Shown piece after piece: positions 2,711-7,822 of a DNA stretch of 64,000 nucleotides. The notes beneath the pieces are model-generated. The model saw only the letters and a program-made list of their open reading frames with translations. It was not told where the DNA came from and made no database searches. The position numbers and the translations under genes are program-made. Each line of letters begins with the position of its first letter. Position 1 is the first letter of the stretch. Origin of the DNA: Euzebya rosea (GTDB lineage: Bacteria > Actinomycetota > Nitriliruptoria > Euzebyales > Euzebyaceae); assembly GCF_003073135.1 (NCBI RefSeq), contig NZ_PGDQ01000006.1:248001-312000 (forward strand), in the 5' to 3' direction.

Positions 2711-5116
2711 TCAGCAGGTGCCGATGGAGTCGGGTTCGGGGATGTCGACGAAGGCGAAGGCGTCGTTCACCCCGTCGGTGACCTCGAACAGCCCGTTGAG
2801 GCTGCTGTCGGGTTGCTCGAACTCACTGGCAGGGAGGGAACCGTCGTAGGGGACGTTGGCGATGTCGAGCTCGAGGGCGTAGGTGCTGGTGCCGTAGAGG
2901 TCCGACAGGACGAAGAACTGGTCGGCAGCGCCGTCGAAGTAGGTCCCGCTCAGGACCGCCCCGTAGGTGAAGAAGTCCCAGCAGGCGGTGATGTCGCGGG
3001 GCTGGGTGGCGTTGATGCTCACGGTCCCCACGGCGCCGGCCTGGCCCCCGGTCCCGGGCGTGCAGTCGGGGACGGTGCCGGGACTCTCGATGTTGAGGAA
3101 CGCGAAGGCGTTGTCGACGCCGTTGGTCACCTCGAACAGCCCGTTGAGGGCACCGTCGGGCTGCTCGAGCTCGTTGGCAGGCAGGCTGCCGGAGTACCCG
3201 CCGAAGTTGATGTCGAGGTCCATGGTGTAGGTGCCGGCGACGTTGTCCAGCGCGAAGAACTGGTCGTTGGCACCGTCGAAGTAGGTGCCGAGGATTTTCG
3301 ACGGGGAGGCCCAGCAGGCGGTGATGTCACGGGGTTCGGTGGCGTTGATGCTCACCGTCCCGATGACACCGCCCGTGCCGCCGGAGTCCGACTCGCAGGC
3401 CGGGAGGGCGAACCGGTCGGGCATGACCACGGTGGCCTGGGTGCTCGCGCCCGACGGTGACGTCGTGGTGAAGGTGCCGTCGTAGCCGTTGGCGGTGGTG
3501 AAGTCGTCGGCGTGCAGCGTGCCGGTGTGGAGCTCGCCGAACCGCATGACCCGCAGGGTGTAGTTGGGCACGTCCTGGCTGAGCTCGAACAGCAGGTCGG
3601 CCCCGGCGTCGGCGTAGGTGCCGCGGATGAGGTTGTCGACGGTGTTGCGGTCCTCGCATGCGGTGATCGGCAGCGGGGTGCCGCTGGCATCGAACTCGAT
3701 CGTCCCGATGCCGTCGCCGGCGCCGTCCTGGTCGCAGCTGGGGAGGTCGAACCGGTCGGGGATCTCCACCGTTGCCTGTGTGCTGGCGCCCGACGGCGTC
3801 GACGTGGTGAACGTGCCGCTGTATCCCCGGTCGGTGACGACGTCGTTGCCGTTCAGGACGCCGGTGTGGAGCTCACCCTGGTGCATGAAGCGGAGGGTGT
3901 AGTTGGGCACGTCCTGGCTGAACTCGAAGAGGAGGTTGCCGTCGCCGGCGGCGTAGGTGCCCCTGATGAGGTTGTCGACGGTGTTGCGGTCCTCGCACGC
4001 GGTGATCGGCAGCGGGCTGCCGGACGGGGTGACCTGGATCGTGCCGATGACACCGTCGTCCTCGGGGAAGCCACCCGCAGCCGCCCGGGCTGCGCTGCTG
4101 ACGCTGTCCGGGATCGCGGACTGGGGGCCGAACGTGATGATCTTCCCCGGCCTCGCCATGCCCAGGTAGTCCTGCACGTCCGTCACCAGACCCGTCTCGT
4201 TGCCGTACACGATGGACATGTTCTCCCGGCCGCCGACGGCTCCCGCCGCGAGGGAGTAGGCCCAGCCGTCCTCGTTGAACCCGTTGACCAGCCCGACGAT
4301 GGATGGCGTGGGGATCTCGGATGCGACCCGTGCCGAGGTCTCGGCGCGGGACGGACCGGCGAGCCTCGTCACGGTCACGCCGAGCTCGACCAGCTGATCC
4401 TCGACGGCCTGGCTGATGGCTGCCGTCCCGCCCAGGATGGTGACGTTGTCGACGCGGCGCTCGAGGATGAAGGCATGCACGGCGGGGTGCAGCTCCTCGA
4501 GGGGGTTCACCACGATCGGCTGACCACGCAGGCCGGCGAGGCCCCCCGCGGCGGCGGAGTCCGCCGGGTTGTTGTCGCGGGCGAGGAAGATGCTGGAGAC
4601 GTCATCGAACGTCCTGGCGATCTCCAGCGAGGTCTCGACCCGTCCCGACCCGGCGAGCCGTGCCACGCAGTACCCCATGTTCCTGATCTCGTCCTCGACG
4701 GTGGCCGAGATCGCGGCCGGCCCGCCGAGGATGGTGACGTACATCTCCGCCTCGTCGCACGTCAGGCTCGGGAGCGGCAAGAGGCGTTCGATCTCCAGGC
4801 GGACCGCGCCATCCAGCCGGTCCGTGGGGTTCAGCAGCAGTGGGCCACGACCCACCGCGTTTGCCCACGACGACCCGCCGAGGTTGTCGGCGAAGACGTT
4901 GGAACGGCCGATGGCGATGCTCGTGATCCTGGGGTCGTCGTCGTCGAAGAACCGCTCGGAGATCTGGATCGACGCGGCGGTCGGGTCCGTGGTGTCGGCG
5001 ACTCGCTCGTCGCCGCTGGTCCCCTGGGCGCTCGCCGGTGCCACCAACAAGGCCAGCAGCACCGCCAGCCCGGTCGCGATCGTGGTCAGCAAGGACGCGG
5101 AGGGGCGTGACGCCAT
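2711..5116 (-). CDS. Cell wall-binding repeat 2 (CWB2) surface protein with duplicated C-terminal modules
   Basis: An 801-residue secreted protein. A signal peptide covers residues 1 to about 31 (cleavage after APASA). Residues about 45-350 carry CWB2-like repeats, recognised by the recurring VTILGG-AAIS-VED and RLAG-R-ET patterns; in other Gram-positives these anchor proteins to wall polymers. After a linker come two copies of a module of about 110 residues (starting near 356 and 469, both with PLPITACEDRN and IRGTY), then two copies of a different module of about 105 residues (near 585 and 696, both starting with GTVSINAT and carrying RDITACW). Each module has one Cys near its start and most have another near the end, suggesting disulphides. 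The C-terminal modules match no family I can name. Confidence 0.85.
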   Translation of the reverse strand: MASRPSASLLTTIATGLAVLLALLVAPASAQGTSGDERVADTTDPTAASIQISERFFDDDDPRITSIAIGRSNVFADNLGGSSWANAVGRGPLLLNPTDRLDGAVRLEIERLLPLPSLTCDEAEMYVTILGGPAAISATVEDEIRNMGYCVARLAGSGRVETSLEIARTFDDVSSIFLARDNNPADSAAAGGLAGLRGQPIVVNPLEELHPAVHAFILERRVDNVTILGGTAAISQAVEDQLVELGVTVTRLAGPSRAETSARVASEIPTPSIVGLVNGFNEDGWAYSLAAGAVGGRENMSIVYGNETGLVTDVQDYLGMARPGKIITFGPQSAIPDSVSSAARAAAGGFPEDDGVIGTIQVTPSGSPLPITACEDRNTVDNLIRGTYAAGDGNLLFEFSQDVPNYTLRFMHQGELHTGVLNGNDVVTDRGYSGTFTTSTPSGASTQATVEIPDRFDLPSCDQDGAGDGIGTIEFDASGTPLPITACEDRNTVDNLIRGTYADAGADLLFELSQDVPNYTLRVMRFGELHTGTLHADDFTTANGYDGTFTTTSPSGASTQATVVMPDRFALPACESDSGGTGGVIGTVSINATEPRDITACWASPSKILGTYFDGANDQFFALDNVAGTYTMDLDINFGGYSGSLPANELEQPDGALNGLFEVTNGVDNAFAFLNIESPGTVPDCTPGTGGQAGAVGTVSINATQPRDITACWDFFTYGAVLSGTYFDGAADQFFVLSDLYGTSTYALELDIANVPYDGSLPASEFEQPDSSLNGLFEVTDGVNDAFAFVDIPEPDSIGTC
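2715..3363 (-). repeat. Tandem duplicated 'INAT' modules in the CWB2 gene
   Basis: Two consecutive segments of the CWB2 gene encode modules of about 105 residues, each opening with GTVSINAT, RDITACW and GTYFDGA-DQFF, and each ending with LNGLFEVT-GV-AFAF. Long stretches of the two DNA copies match, so this is a fairly recent or homogenised duplication. Confidence 0.7.
3365..4051 (-). repeat. Tandem duplicated 'ITACEDRN' modules in the CWB2 gene
   Basis: Two consecutive segments encode modules of about 110 residues sharing LPITACEDRNTVDNLIRGTY, SQDVPNYTLR, GELHTG, and SGASTQATV-PDRF. This pair differs from the downstream pair, but both families share the ITAC start and GTY motif, so all four modules may descend from one ancestor. 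Confidence 0.7.
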
Positions 5117-6176: not shown

Positions 6177-7295
6177 ATGAGCGACCTCATCGAGATCGAG
6201 GACCTCGACGTCCAGGAGCGGTTCTTCGAGGAGGGGTGGACCGACGGCCTGCCGATCGTCCCCCCGACCCCCGATCGCGTGCTCGACATGATGCTGGCGG
6301 CCGGGGTGACCGACCCCGACGACGTGCTCGGCACCGTCCCCCAGCGGGGCCTGGCCGTCACCGTGGAGAAGGCCGCCATCAACGCGGTCATGGCTGGCTG
6401 CCGGCCGGAGTACTTCCCGATCGTCATCGCCGGCCTGTCCGCGATGCTCGACCCGGCGTTCAACGCCCACACCGCCACCACCAGCACCGGCGGCGCGGCC
6501 ATCTGCACCATCGTCAGCGGCCCCATGGCCCGCGAGGTCGGGATGAACGGCACGCACAACGCGCTCGGCTCGGGCAACCGGGCCAACGCCACGATCGGTC
6601 GGGCCATCCGCCTGGTCGCCGGCAACGTGCTTGGCGCGAAGAGCGGCGGGCTGGACGGCAGCTCGATGGGGCACCCGGGCAAGTACACGCTCTGCTTCGC
6701 CGAGGACCCGCCCCGTGCGCCGTGGCAACCGCTGTCCGCCGACCTCGGCTTCGATGCCGACGACACCGTCGTGACGGTCGTTCCCACCGAGGGTCCGCGG
6801 CAGGTCGCCAACCACCTCGTCGAGGACCCCGAACGCCTCCTGCTGACCTTCGCCGCCGCGATGAAGGTCCCCTCCAACTTCGTGTCCGGCAAGGGTGGGC
6901 AGGGCGTCGTCGTCCTGGGCCACGAGCACCACCTCGCCGTCGTCGAGGCCGGCTGGAGCCGACGAGACGTCCAGGAGTTCCTCGCCGAGGCCTCGCGCAT
7001 CACCCCAGAGGAGCTGCGCGCCGGCGGCATCGACCTGCCCGAGGGCAGCTCCCACGACCTGGTTCCCGGCCCCGACGGCAAGCTCGCGACCGTCCCCACC
7101 CCTGACGACGTGTTCGTCGTCACCGCCGGCGGTGCCGGCGCCGGCTGGTCGGCCTACATCCCGTCCTGGGCCCCCGTCGACGTCGCCATGGCTCGCGCCG
7201 TCAGCCGCCGGGTGCGGCCACCGGGCGAGGCGCTGCCCGACTGCGGCCCCGACGGCTGCGAGGTCACCCTCCCACCCATGGGGGAGGACTCGTGA
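6177..7295 (+). CDS. Conserved protein of unknown function, partner of the UGSC selenoprotein
   Basis: A 372-residue soluble protein starting at ATG 6177, with AGGAGG at 6161-6166 as ribosome-binding site; an in-frame extension upstream to 5187 is antisense noise. I do not recognise a characterised family. Visible features are an acidic N-terminus followed by WTDGLPIVPPTP, Gly/Ala-rich central segments (TATTSTGGAAICTIVSGP; GSGNRANATIGRAIRL), HEHH near residue 250, and a C-terminal Cys pair in DCGPDGCEV. Its TGA overlaps the GTG of the selenoprotein gene by four bases, so the two are translationally coupled and probably work together. The Cys pair may exchange disulphides with the partner's U/C centre, which is inference. 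Confidence 0.75.
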   Translation: MSDLIEIEDLDVQERFFEEGWTDGLPIVPPTPDRVLDMMLAAGVTDPDDVLGTVPQRGLAVTVEKAAINAVMAGCRPEYFPIVIAGLSAMLDPAFNAHTATTSTGGAAICTIVSGPMAREVGMNGTHNALGSGNRANATIGRAIRLVAGNVLGAKSGGLDGSSMGHPGKYTLCFAEDPPRAPWQPLSADLGFDADDTVVTVVPTEGPRQVANHLVEDPERLLLTFAAAMKVPSNFVSGKGGQGVVVLGHEHHLAVVEAGWSRRDVQEFLAEASRITPEELRAGGIDLPEGSSHDLVPGPDGKLATVPTPDDVFVVTAGGAGAGWSAYIPSWAPVDVAMARAVSRRVRPPGEALPDCGPDGCEVTLPPMGEDS

Positions 7296-7822
7296 CCGTC
7301 ATCCGCGTCCATCGGCCCGACATGGCCACCTCGTCCGCCGACGCGCTGGACCTGGCCCCACGCGTGCCGCTGCCCGACGACGCCAGGCTGCTCATCGTCG
7401 ACAACGGCAAGCCCAACGCCAAGGCGCTACTCGGCCACATCGGCGAGCGGCTGCGCGACCTCCTGGGCATCGCCCACGTCGAGGTCCACACCAAACCCTC
7501 TGCCGGCGCCCCGCTGGACGCCGACGTGACCCGGATGCTGGCGGCTCGCTCGCACCTGGTGATCTCCGGCCTCGGTGACTGAGGGGCCTGCACCGCGTGC
7601 AGTTTGCACGACTCCGTCCAGTTCGAGCGGCTGGGAATCCCCGCCACGCTCGTCATGACCGAGCCCTTCCAGGGCCTGGCTGCCCGCTTCGGGGCCACCC
7701 TCGGCGCGCCCGCCTACCCCACGGTCATGGTCCCCCACCCGGTGTCCACCAAGGACGACGCGGCGCTCCAGGCGCTCGCCGACCGTTTCGCCCCCGACGT
7801 GGCCGCCCGCCTCTCCACCTGA
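7292..7822 (+). CDS. UGSC-family selenoprotein (Sec97 encoded by in-frame TGA)
   Basis: A 176-residue protein if the TGA at 7580-7582 is read as selenocysteine. Residues before the stop (HLVISGLGD) and after it (GACTACSLHDS) form one continuous domain in the same frame: GLGD-U97-G-A-C100-T-A-C103-SLHDS-x4-E. This is the UGSC-family signature, here with Ala for Ser. Read as a stop, the product would be a 96-residue fragment ending at the active site, while good coding sequence with the family's C-terminal half (PATLVMTEPF; YPTVMVPHPVS) continues to TGA 7820-7822. A SECIS-like hairpin starts 13 bases after the TGA. GTG start overlaps the upstream stop (GTGA). Likely a redox enzyme; substrate unknown. 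The selA/B/C/D genes are not in this window. Confidence 0.88.
7580..7582 (+). other. UGA recoded as selenocysteine
   Basis: The in-frame TGA sits exactly where UGSC-family proteins carry Sec or Cys, followed by Gly-Ala-Cys. Frame and protein similarity continue without a shift on both sides, which a nonsense mutation in a decaying gene would not be expected to preserve so neatly. Confidence 0.85.
7596..7610 (+). promoter_or_regulatory. Bacterial SECIS-like hairpin
   Basis: CGTGCA (7596-7601) pairs perfectly with TGCACG (7605-7610) around a GTT loop. Bacterial SECIS elements lie just downstream of the UGA and carry a G at the loop apex, where SelB binds. The E. coli fdhF element likewise has a TGCA stem closed by a G/T-rich loop about 11 bases after the UGA; here the gap is 13 bases. 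A competing weaker stem, CTGCA/TGCAG, overlaps it at 7588-7602. Confidence 0.75.

Follow-up and report, generated by a model that had tools for sequence, protein, structure and literature searches.

The 64,000-nucleotide stretch of Euzebya rosea DNA analysed here (the window) contains a reading frame that starts with GTG at 7292 and terminates with TGA at 7820–7822. Its sole internal stop codon is another TGA, as an earlier sequence-only reading of the window had stated. The locus raises the question of whether this internal TGA is decoded as selenocysteine and, if so, in what kind of enzyme the resulting protein takes part. Read with the TGA as selenocysteine (Sec), nucleotides 7292–7819 specify 176 residues, and position 97 is surrounded by the motif GLGD-U-G-A-C-T-A-C-SLHDS. 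By contrast, ordinary gene calling with translation table 11 cuts the protein at residue 96 and yields an open reading frame at 7292–7582. The sequence-only reading had foreseen this fragment; however, the orphan second piece that it thought possible is absent from the list of open reading frames, which contains no piece of at least 80 residues in the same frame 3' of the TGA. The GC content of the genome is 71%, which gives rise to long open frames by chance, and therefore the openness of the frame was not used as evidence.

Features of the UGSC locus in the window
Feature	Position	Strand	Basis
Partner protein gene, 372 residues, ATG start; motifs GWTDGLPIVPPT, NAVMAGC and NRANATIGRA	6177–7295	+	Next to UGSC, or fused with it, in every locus examined
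Ribosome-binding-site-like GGGGGAGGA, 5' of the GTG start of UGSC	7280–7288	+	Sequence
Predicted UGSC-family selenoprotein gene, 176 residues, GTG start, TGA-encoded Sec97	7292–7822	+	PF24696; purifying selection 5' and 3' of the TGA
TGA, very probably read as selenocysteine (Sec97), in an invariant Sec/Cys column	7580–7582	+	Alignments; Sec in 24 and Cys in 4 of the 28 loci from the phylum
SECIS-like hairpin CGUGCA-GUU-UGCACG	7596–7610	+	Position, GUN loop and compensatory pairs common to other Sec genes; present in minimum free energy fold

A UGSC-family protein with an internal TGA

The Pfam profile PF24696 (UGSC) matches the fused translation with 151.6 bits, compared with a gathering cut-off of 25. 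Residues 6–175 are aligned to positions 2–171 of the 172 in the profile, and a single domain thus spans both sides of the TGA. Both the single domain and the family membership proposed from the sequence are borne out by this match. The NCBIfam equivalog NF041046, scored with Cys replacing Sec, gives 118.8 bits (E 1.9e-34) relative to a curated cut-off of 125. UGSC is already known as a selenoprotein family, to which the window gene adds a member. It was described as an abundant selenoprotein family of natural waters in the GOS survey of 2008, which counted 255 Sec sequences (PMC2398784), and a survey from 2016 reported 33 UGSC selenoproteins in 26 genomes. The window protein shares with the family (PF24696/NF041046, PMC2398784) one whole-length domain, the Sec/Cys column, the motif U-G-x-C, and the invariant residues Gly98, Cys100, and Phe126. 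It differs in the replacement of Ser99 by Ala, which is a trait of its clade, and in a hairpin stem shorter than those of most Sec relatives. A search of the literature found no function stated for UGSC, and no publication naming PF24696 or the "UGSC family".

The sequence Sec97-Gly98-Ala99-Cys100 is an instance of the Sec/Cys-G-[SA]-C motif that serves as the family criterion. The active column contains TGA in 24 and Cys in four of the 28 loci identified in a scan of the phylum, in agreement with the expectation that homologues have Sec or Cys at this place. In the aligned members, a set that leaves out the distant L045 with its U-D-G-C motif, the active column is always Sec or Cys, and Gly98 and Cys100 are invariant. 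Exactly one TGA is present in each of the 25 class-level family matches over the cut-off. Codon changes 3' of the TGA were compared between the window gene and three relatives. The closest pair, with L150, differs by 12 synonymous and no non-synonymous changes; the comparison with L034 gives 20 synonymous and nine non-synonymous changes (dN/dS about 0.17), and that with the distant L156 gives 23 and 27, respectively (NG86 dN/dS 0.26). The mostly silent character of the changes indicates selection acting on a translated product.

The genome of the window (G000) encodes all four components of the Sec machinery, each above its cut-off, as the sequence-only reading had asked to be checked. The summed score of selB is 308.7 bits, with a cut-off of 242; selA (449.7 bits) is located on contig C9 about 3 kb from selB; and selD scores 381.9 bits. 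The tRNA-Sec gene (selC), with a TCA anticodon and a score of 65 bits, shares a contig with the window and is also called by ARAGORN. The genome contains a second UGSC gene of the UGSC type (L021, G000:C12:32397-32894), which is likewise interrupted by one TGA.

The downstream hairpin and the distribution of Sec and Cys

SelB and tRNA-Sec would decode the UGA at 7580 with the help of a short downstream hairpin. The candidate hairpin has a GUU loop, which starts 19 nucleotides after the UGA, and a stem of six base pairs, in agreement with the rules for loop, stem, and spacing. Its stem energy of -6.3 kcal/mol is weaker than in most Sec relatives. The limits of the published bSECIS model include a minimum free energy of -7.5 kcal/mol or lower (PMC13188914), and because the window copy retains only the inner six pairs, its stem alone misses this limit. 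The minimum free energy fold of the 51-nucleotide stretch 7580–7630 contains the hairpin and has an energy of -12.2 kcal/mol, which is not better than that of shuffled sequences (z +1.57). A hairpin with a loop 18–19 nucleotides after the UGA is present in 23 of 24 Sec genes, typically in the form GUCGUGCA-GUN-UGCACGAC. The one Sec gene that lacks it at the usual place is the distant L045 (G186:C87), in which U-G-x-C is replaced by GG-U-D-G-C with one additional residue. The best qualifying hairpin reaches -7.5 kcal/mol or lower in 21 of 24 Sec genes versus 14 of 84 Cys genes (Mann-Whitney p 1e-11, which serves as a guide only, because the genes are related). Two of the eight pairs of the hairpin are changed on both sides, and the resulting covariation score was reached by none of 500 shuffles and was lower in slid controls; nevertheless, such a score can be exaggerated by related sequences, and the conservation stems in part from protein coding.

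The presence of Ala in place of Ser in the U-G-A-C motif had been called unusual; however, it is a clade trait. In a tree of 100 members, constructed by a quick search with the motif columns masked and with SH-aLRT support only, the window protein and its homologue from the same genus fall within a strongly supported set of 19 proteins, all of which have Ala and 17 of which are Cys-type. Ala also occurs in the Sec copies L149, L161, and L162, and in a separate clade of fused Cys-type proteins. Ala at this position is thus nothing out of the ordinary. In the sampled tree, Sec occurs inside the Ala clade only in the genus of the window; Sec members may have been missed, because the scan of the genome collection searched with Cys codons at the site and therefore provided only Cys-type members, so that the proportions of Sec and Cys are no census.

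The nearest relatives outside the genus of the window are Cys-type, and one base change converts a Cys codon (TGC or TGT) to TGA. Together with the weakness of the window hairpin, this could be taken to indicate that the gene is a pseudogene or contains a sequencing error, in which a Cys codon was mutated or misread. Such an origin is exceedingly improbable: all four same-genus genomes (that of the window and three others) retain the TGA, the core of the hairpin, and its GUU or GUC loop. Furthermore, the frame downstream of the TGA is under purifying selection, and the genome contains the complete Sec machinery and another TGA-bearing UGSC copy. None of the outcomes named beforehand as contradicting selenocysteine has occurred: selB and selC are not absent, homologues do not lack both Sec and Cys at this column, and no close relative has a sense codon leading to a different, frame-shifted protein. 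Four findings exclude a reading frame due to chance: the single PF24696 domain on both sides of the TGA, the Sec/Cys column, purifying selection on the codons 3' of the TGA, and conservation of the TGA within the genus. Together with the Sec machinery, they make it highly probable that the TGA is decoded as Sec97 and that the product is a true UGSC-family selenoprotein, as the sequence-only reading had proposed. Recoding of the UGSC gene is demonstrated at the level of comparative genomics, from which translation through the UGA may be inferred.

The partner gene

More is learned about the locus from the gene immediately upstream of UGSC, which the sequence-only reading does not mention. Its stop codon overlaps the UGSC start by four nucleotides (GTGA), a Shine-Dalgarno-like site precedes each of the two genes, and the two are probably translated together. 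The 372-residue partner protein has no match among Pfam or NCBIfam families; its conserved residues include Asp23, Cys75, Arg142, Asp160, and Glu176. Its homologue is adjacent to UGSC in all 28 phylum loci, and adjacent or fused to it in all 80 loci from the genome collection (upstream in 41, downstream in 15, and within one chain in 24), counts that in sum (108) include a few contigs more than once. The scan covered 396 phylum genomes, and all 26 that have a UGSC gene over the cut-off also have the partner. The partner and UGSC proteins probably form one enzyme. A domain named Unknown_1, conserved and fused with UGSC, was reported in the 2008 GOS survey (PMC2398784). Unknown_1 is probably the partner described here, which is fused to UGSC in 24 loci; this identity is presumed.

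The sole exception to the pairing among the 396 phylum genomes is G172:C272:223-9041, with partner-like genes and no detected UGSC; these genes, with frames 664 and 782 residues long, apparently encode proteins in which the domain occurs twice in tandem. Fused UGSC-partner chains of about 550–660 residues, all Cys-type, occur in actinomycetes, sphingomonads, and a Gracilibacteraceae genome (L106–L130). A chain of 553 residues (L095, 8641–10299) has two regions that match the partner and one that weakly matches UGSC, the latter without C-G-x-C, and is possibly a derivative that has neither Sec nor Cys. Most of the sampled hosts belong to the actinomycetes, sphingomonads, and halophilic archaea. 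Cys-type UGSC with a partner is encoded by halophilic archaea and an Archaeoglobi genome (L085, L087–L091, L107), and thus the module crosses domains.

In some Sec-type modules, the partner carries an additional N-terminal domain with the motifs C-x-T-C and V-P-T. This domain resembles thioredoxins with an E value of 7e-7, and the Pfam Thioredoxin profile matches it weakly in nine of 13 members. The partner gene of L021, the second UGSC copy in the genome of the window, is one of those with the N-terminal thioredoxin domain. Since the L021 module exists beside the window module, the genome contains both module types.

No relatives of UGSC or the partner were detected by sequence in the PDB up to an E value of 10. 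The AF2 model of the partner has a pLDDT of 89.7, and its comparison with the PDB provided only weak, partial matches to chorismate mutase, fumarase, and cyclic amide hydrolases. The best Z score of 5.5 is too low for a fold to be named.

Fold, likeness to GrdB, and possible reaction

In the AF2 model (pLDDT 95.2), UGSC adopts a Rossmann/flavodoxin-like fold with five strands, in which Sec97 and Cys100 of the U-G-A-C motif are placed at the start of the helix that follows the third strand. The conserved residues Asn38, Lys40, Asp96-Sec97-Gly98-Cys100, Phe126, and His149-Pro150 fall in segments that follow strands. The topology of the model suggests that these segments correspond to the places where Rossmann-like folds position their active sites. 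A thioredoxin fold was considered for UGSC and rejected, because the order of helices and strands in the model is unlike that of thioredoxin. The 2008 GOS paper guessed, in line with the UxxC motif, that UGSC is a thioredoxin-like oxidoreductase (PMC2398784); such a protein would act alone, and the partner would be a separate enzyme. This is very unlikely given the Rossmann/flavodoxin-like model, the fusion of a true thioredoxin domain with the partner, as seen in sister modules, and the existence of UGSC and partner as one chain in 24 loci.

The Sec site of UGSC resembles that of GrdB, and UGSC is, as judged by profile comparisons, distantly related to the subunit that carries selenium in glycine and proline reductases. 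Among 70 UGSC members, 45 match the GrdB profile TIGR01917 (best E 1e-6), 23 match TIGR01918, and nine match PrdB; the window protein scores 15.1 bits against TIGR01917, below the family cut-off of 602. Alignment of UGSC residues 74–153 with GrdB residues 324–398 by hhalign has a probability of 95% and an E value of 2.2e-8, and places Sec97 on Sec350 of GrdB. The GrdB alignment used in this comparison was derived from GrdB-family genes in genomes related to a Gracilibacteraceae locus; its Sec350 is part of T-U-G-T-C-T-R-C. A search for GrdB in two genomes found none. UGSC has in common with GrdB (TIGR01917/TIGR01918) and PrdB (TIGR04483) about 75 residues flanking the Sec, including U-G-x-C-T-x-C, an ER-x-GIP segment after the Sec site, and a P-[HY]-P motif. 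GrdB and PrdB work with a partner subunit, as is proposed for UGSC. However, UGSC is about 176 residues long compared with about 431 in GrdB, the N-terminal part of which is missing from UGSC. The likeness is limited to the Sec region of UGSC. The possibility that the partner corresponds to a part of GrdB was ruled out by an hhalign probability of 0.2%. Because the partner has neither homology to GrdB nor a Pfam match, comparisons at this level show nothing equivalent to GrdE or PrdA, the subunit of the two reductases whose pyruvoyl group is formed from a Cys proprotein. Four points were not found stated in the literature consulted, although others may have noticed them earlier: that the partner is near-obligate throughout UGSC, that thioredoxin is fused to it in some modules, that the Sec site is homologous to that of GrdB, and that the predicted fold is Rossmann-like and unlike thioredoxin.

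The Sec protein of glycine and D-proline reductases acts while substrate is bound; a selenenylsulfide arises, which dithiols then reset, and in glycine reductase this dithiol is thioredoxin (PMC10298544). By analogy, the selenolate of Sec97 would attack a substrate held by the partner subunit, Sec97 would then form a selenenylsulfide with Cys100, and thioredoxin would reset it. The chances are even that the UGSC module is such a thioredoxin-fed reductase; the formation of the complex, the reductase reaction, and the reductant are all proposals. GrdB and PrdB break carbon-nitrogen bonds, for which Se-C intermediates have been proposed (PMC10298544). A more specific and tentative reading, which falls short of an even chance, is that UGSC and the partner may be the two subunits of an undescribed thioredoxin-powered reductase with a GrdB/PrdB-type Sec/Cys site. 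The partner would hold the substrate, in which the enzyme would cleave a bond between carbon and nitrogen or another heteroatom. This reductase would be distributed among sphingomonads, halophilic archaea, and many actinomycetes, with interchanging Sec and Cys versions.

The genes surrounding UGSC modules do not indicate a shared pathway: no family dominates among 105 neighbours picked by rough gene calling, the commonest being short-chain dehydrogenases (seven) and FAD/pyridine nucleotide oxidoreductases (five to six). The neighbours in the window include genes for AMP-ligase-like and SnoaL-like proteins, a branched-chain amino-acid-type ABC transporter, and an FMN-dependent dehydrogenase, which hint weakly at organic-acid catabolism. 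The opposite strand at 2711–5116 encodes a secreted-looking protein of 801 residues. Inspection of its translation by eye showed cell-wall-binding-like repeats and, after them, several modules of about 100 residues each that resemble one another (ITACEDRNTVDNLIRGTYA...).

GrdB is known from Stickland-fermenting clostridia, which the actinomycetes, sphingomonads, and halophilic archaea that carry UGSC do not resemble. These hosts, and the short-chain dehydrogenases, FAD oxidoreductases, and amidohydrolases among the neighbours, are consistent with a genuine selenoprotein in a module that acts on a peroxide, disulfide, or electrophile in detoxification, without cleavage of a carbon-nitrogen or other carbon-heteroatom bond. 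Such a function is conceivable, if somewhat doubtful; it is at odds with the closest characterised homology, which is to GrdB and PrdB as breakers of carbon-nitrogen bonds (PMC10298544).

The clade of the window protein, in which Sec is confined within the sample to one genus among Cys-type relatives, is a natural test of the benefit of Sec. With the near-obligate and often fused or overlapping partner, the thioredoxin fusion, and the GrdB-type site, UGSC is no longer an orphan selenoprotein but part of a defined module of two subunits, which lends itself to co-expression and assay.
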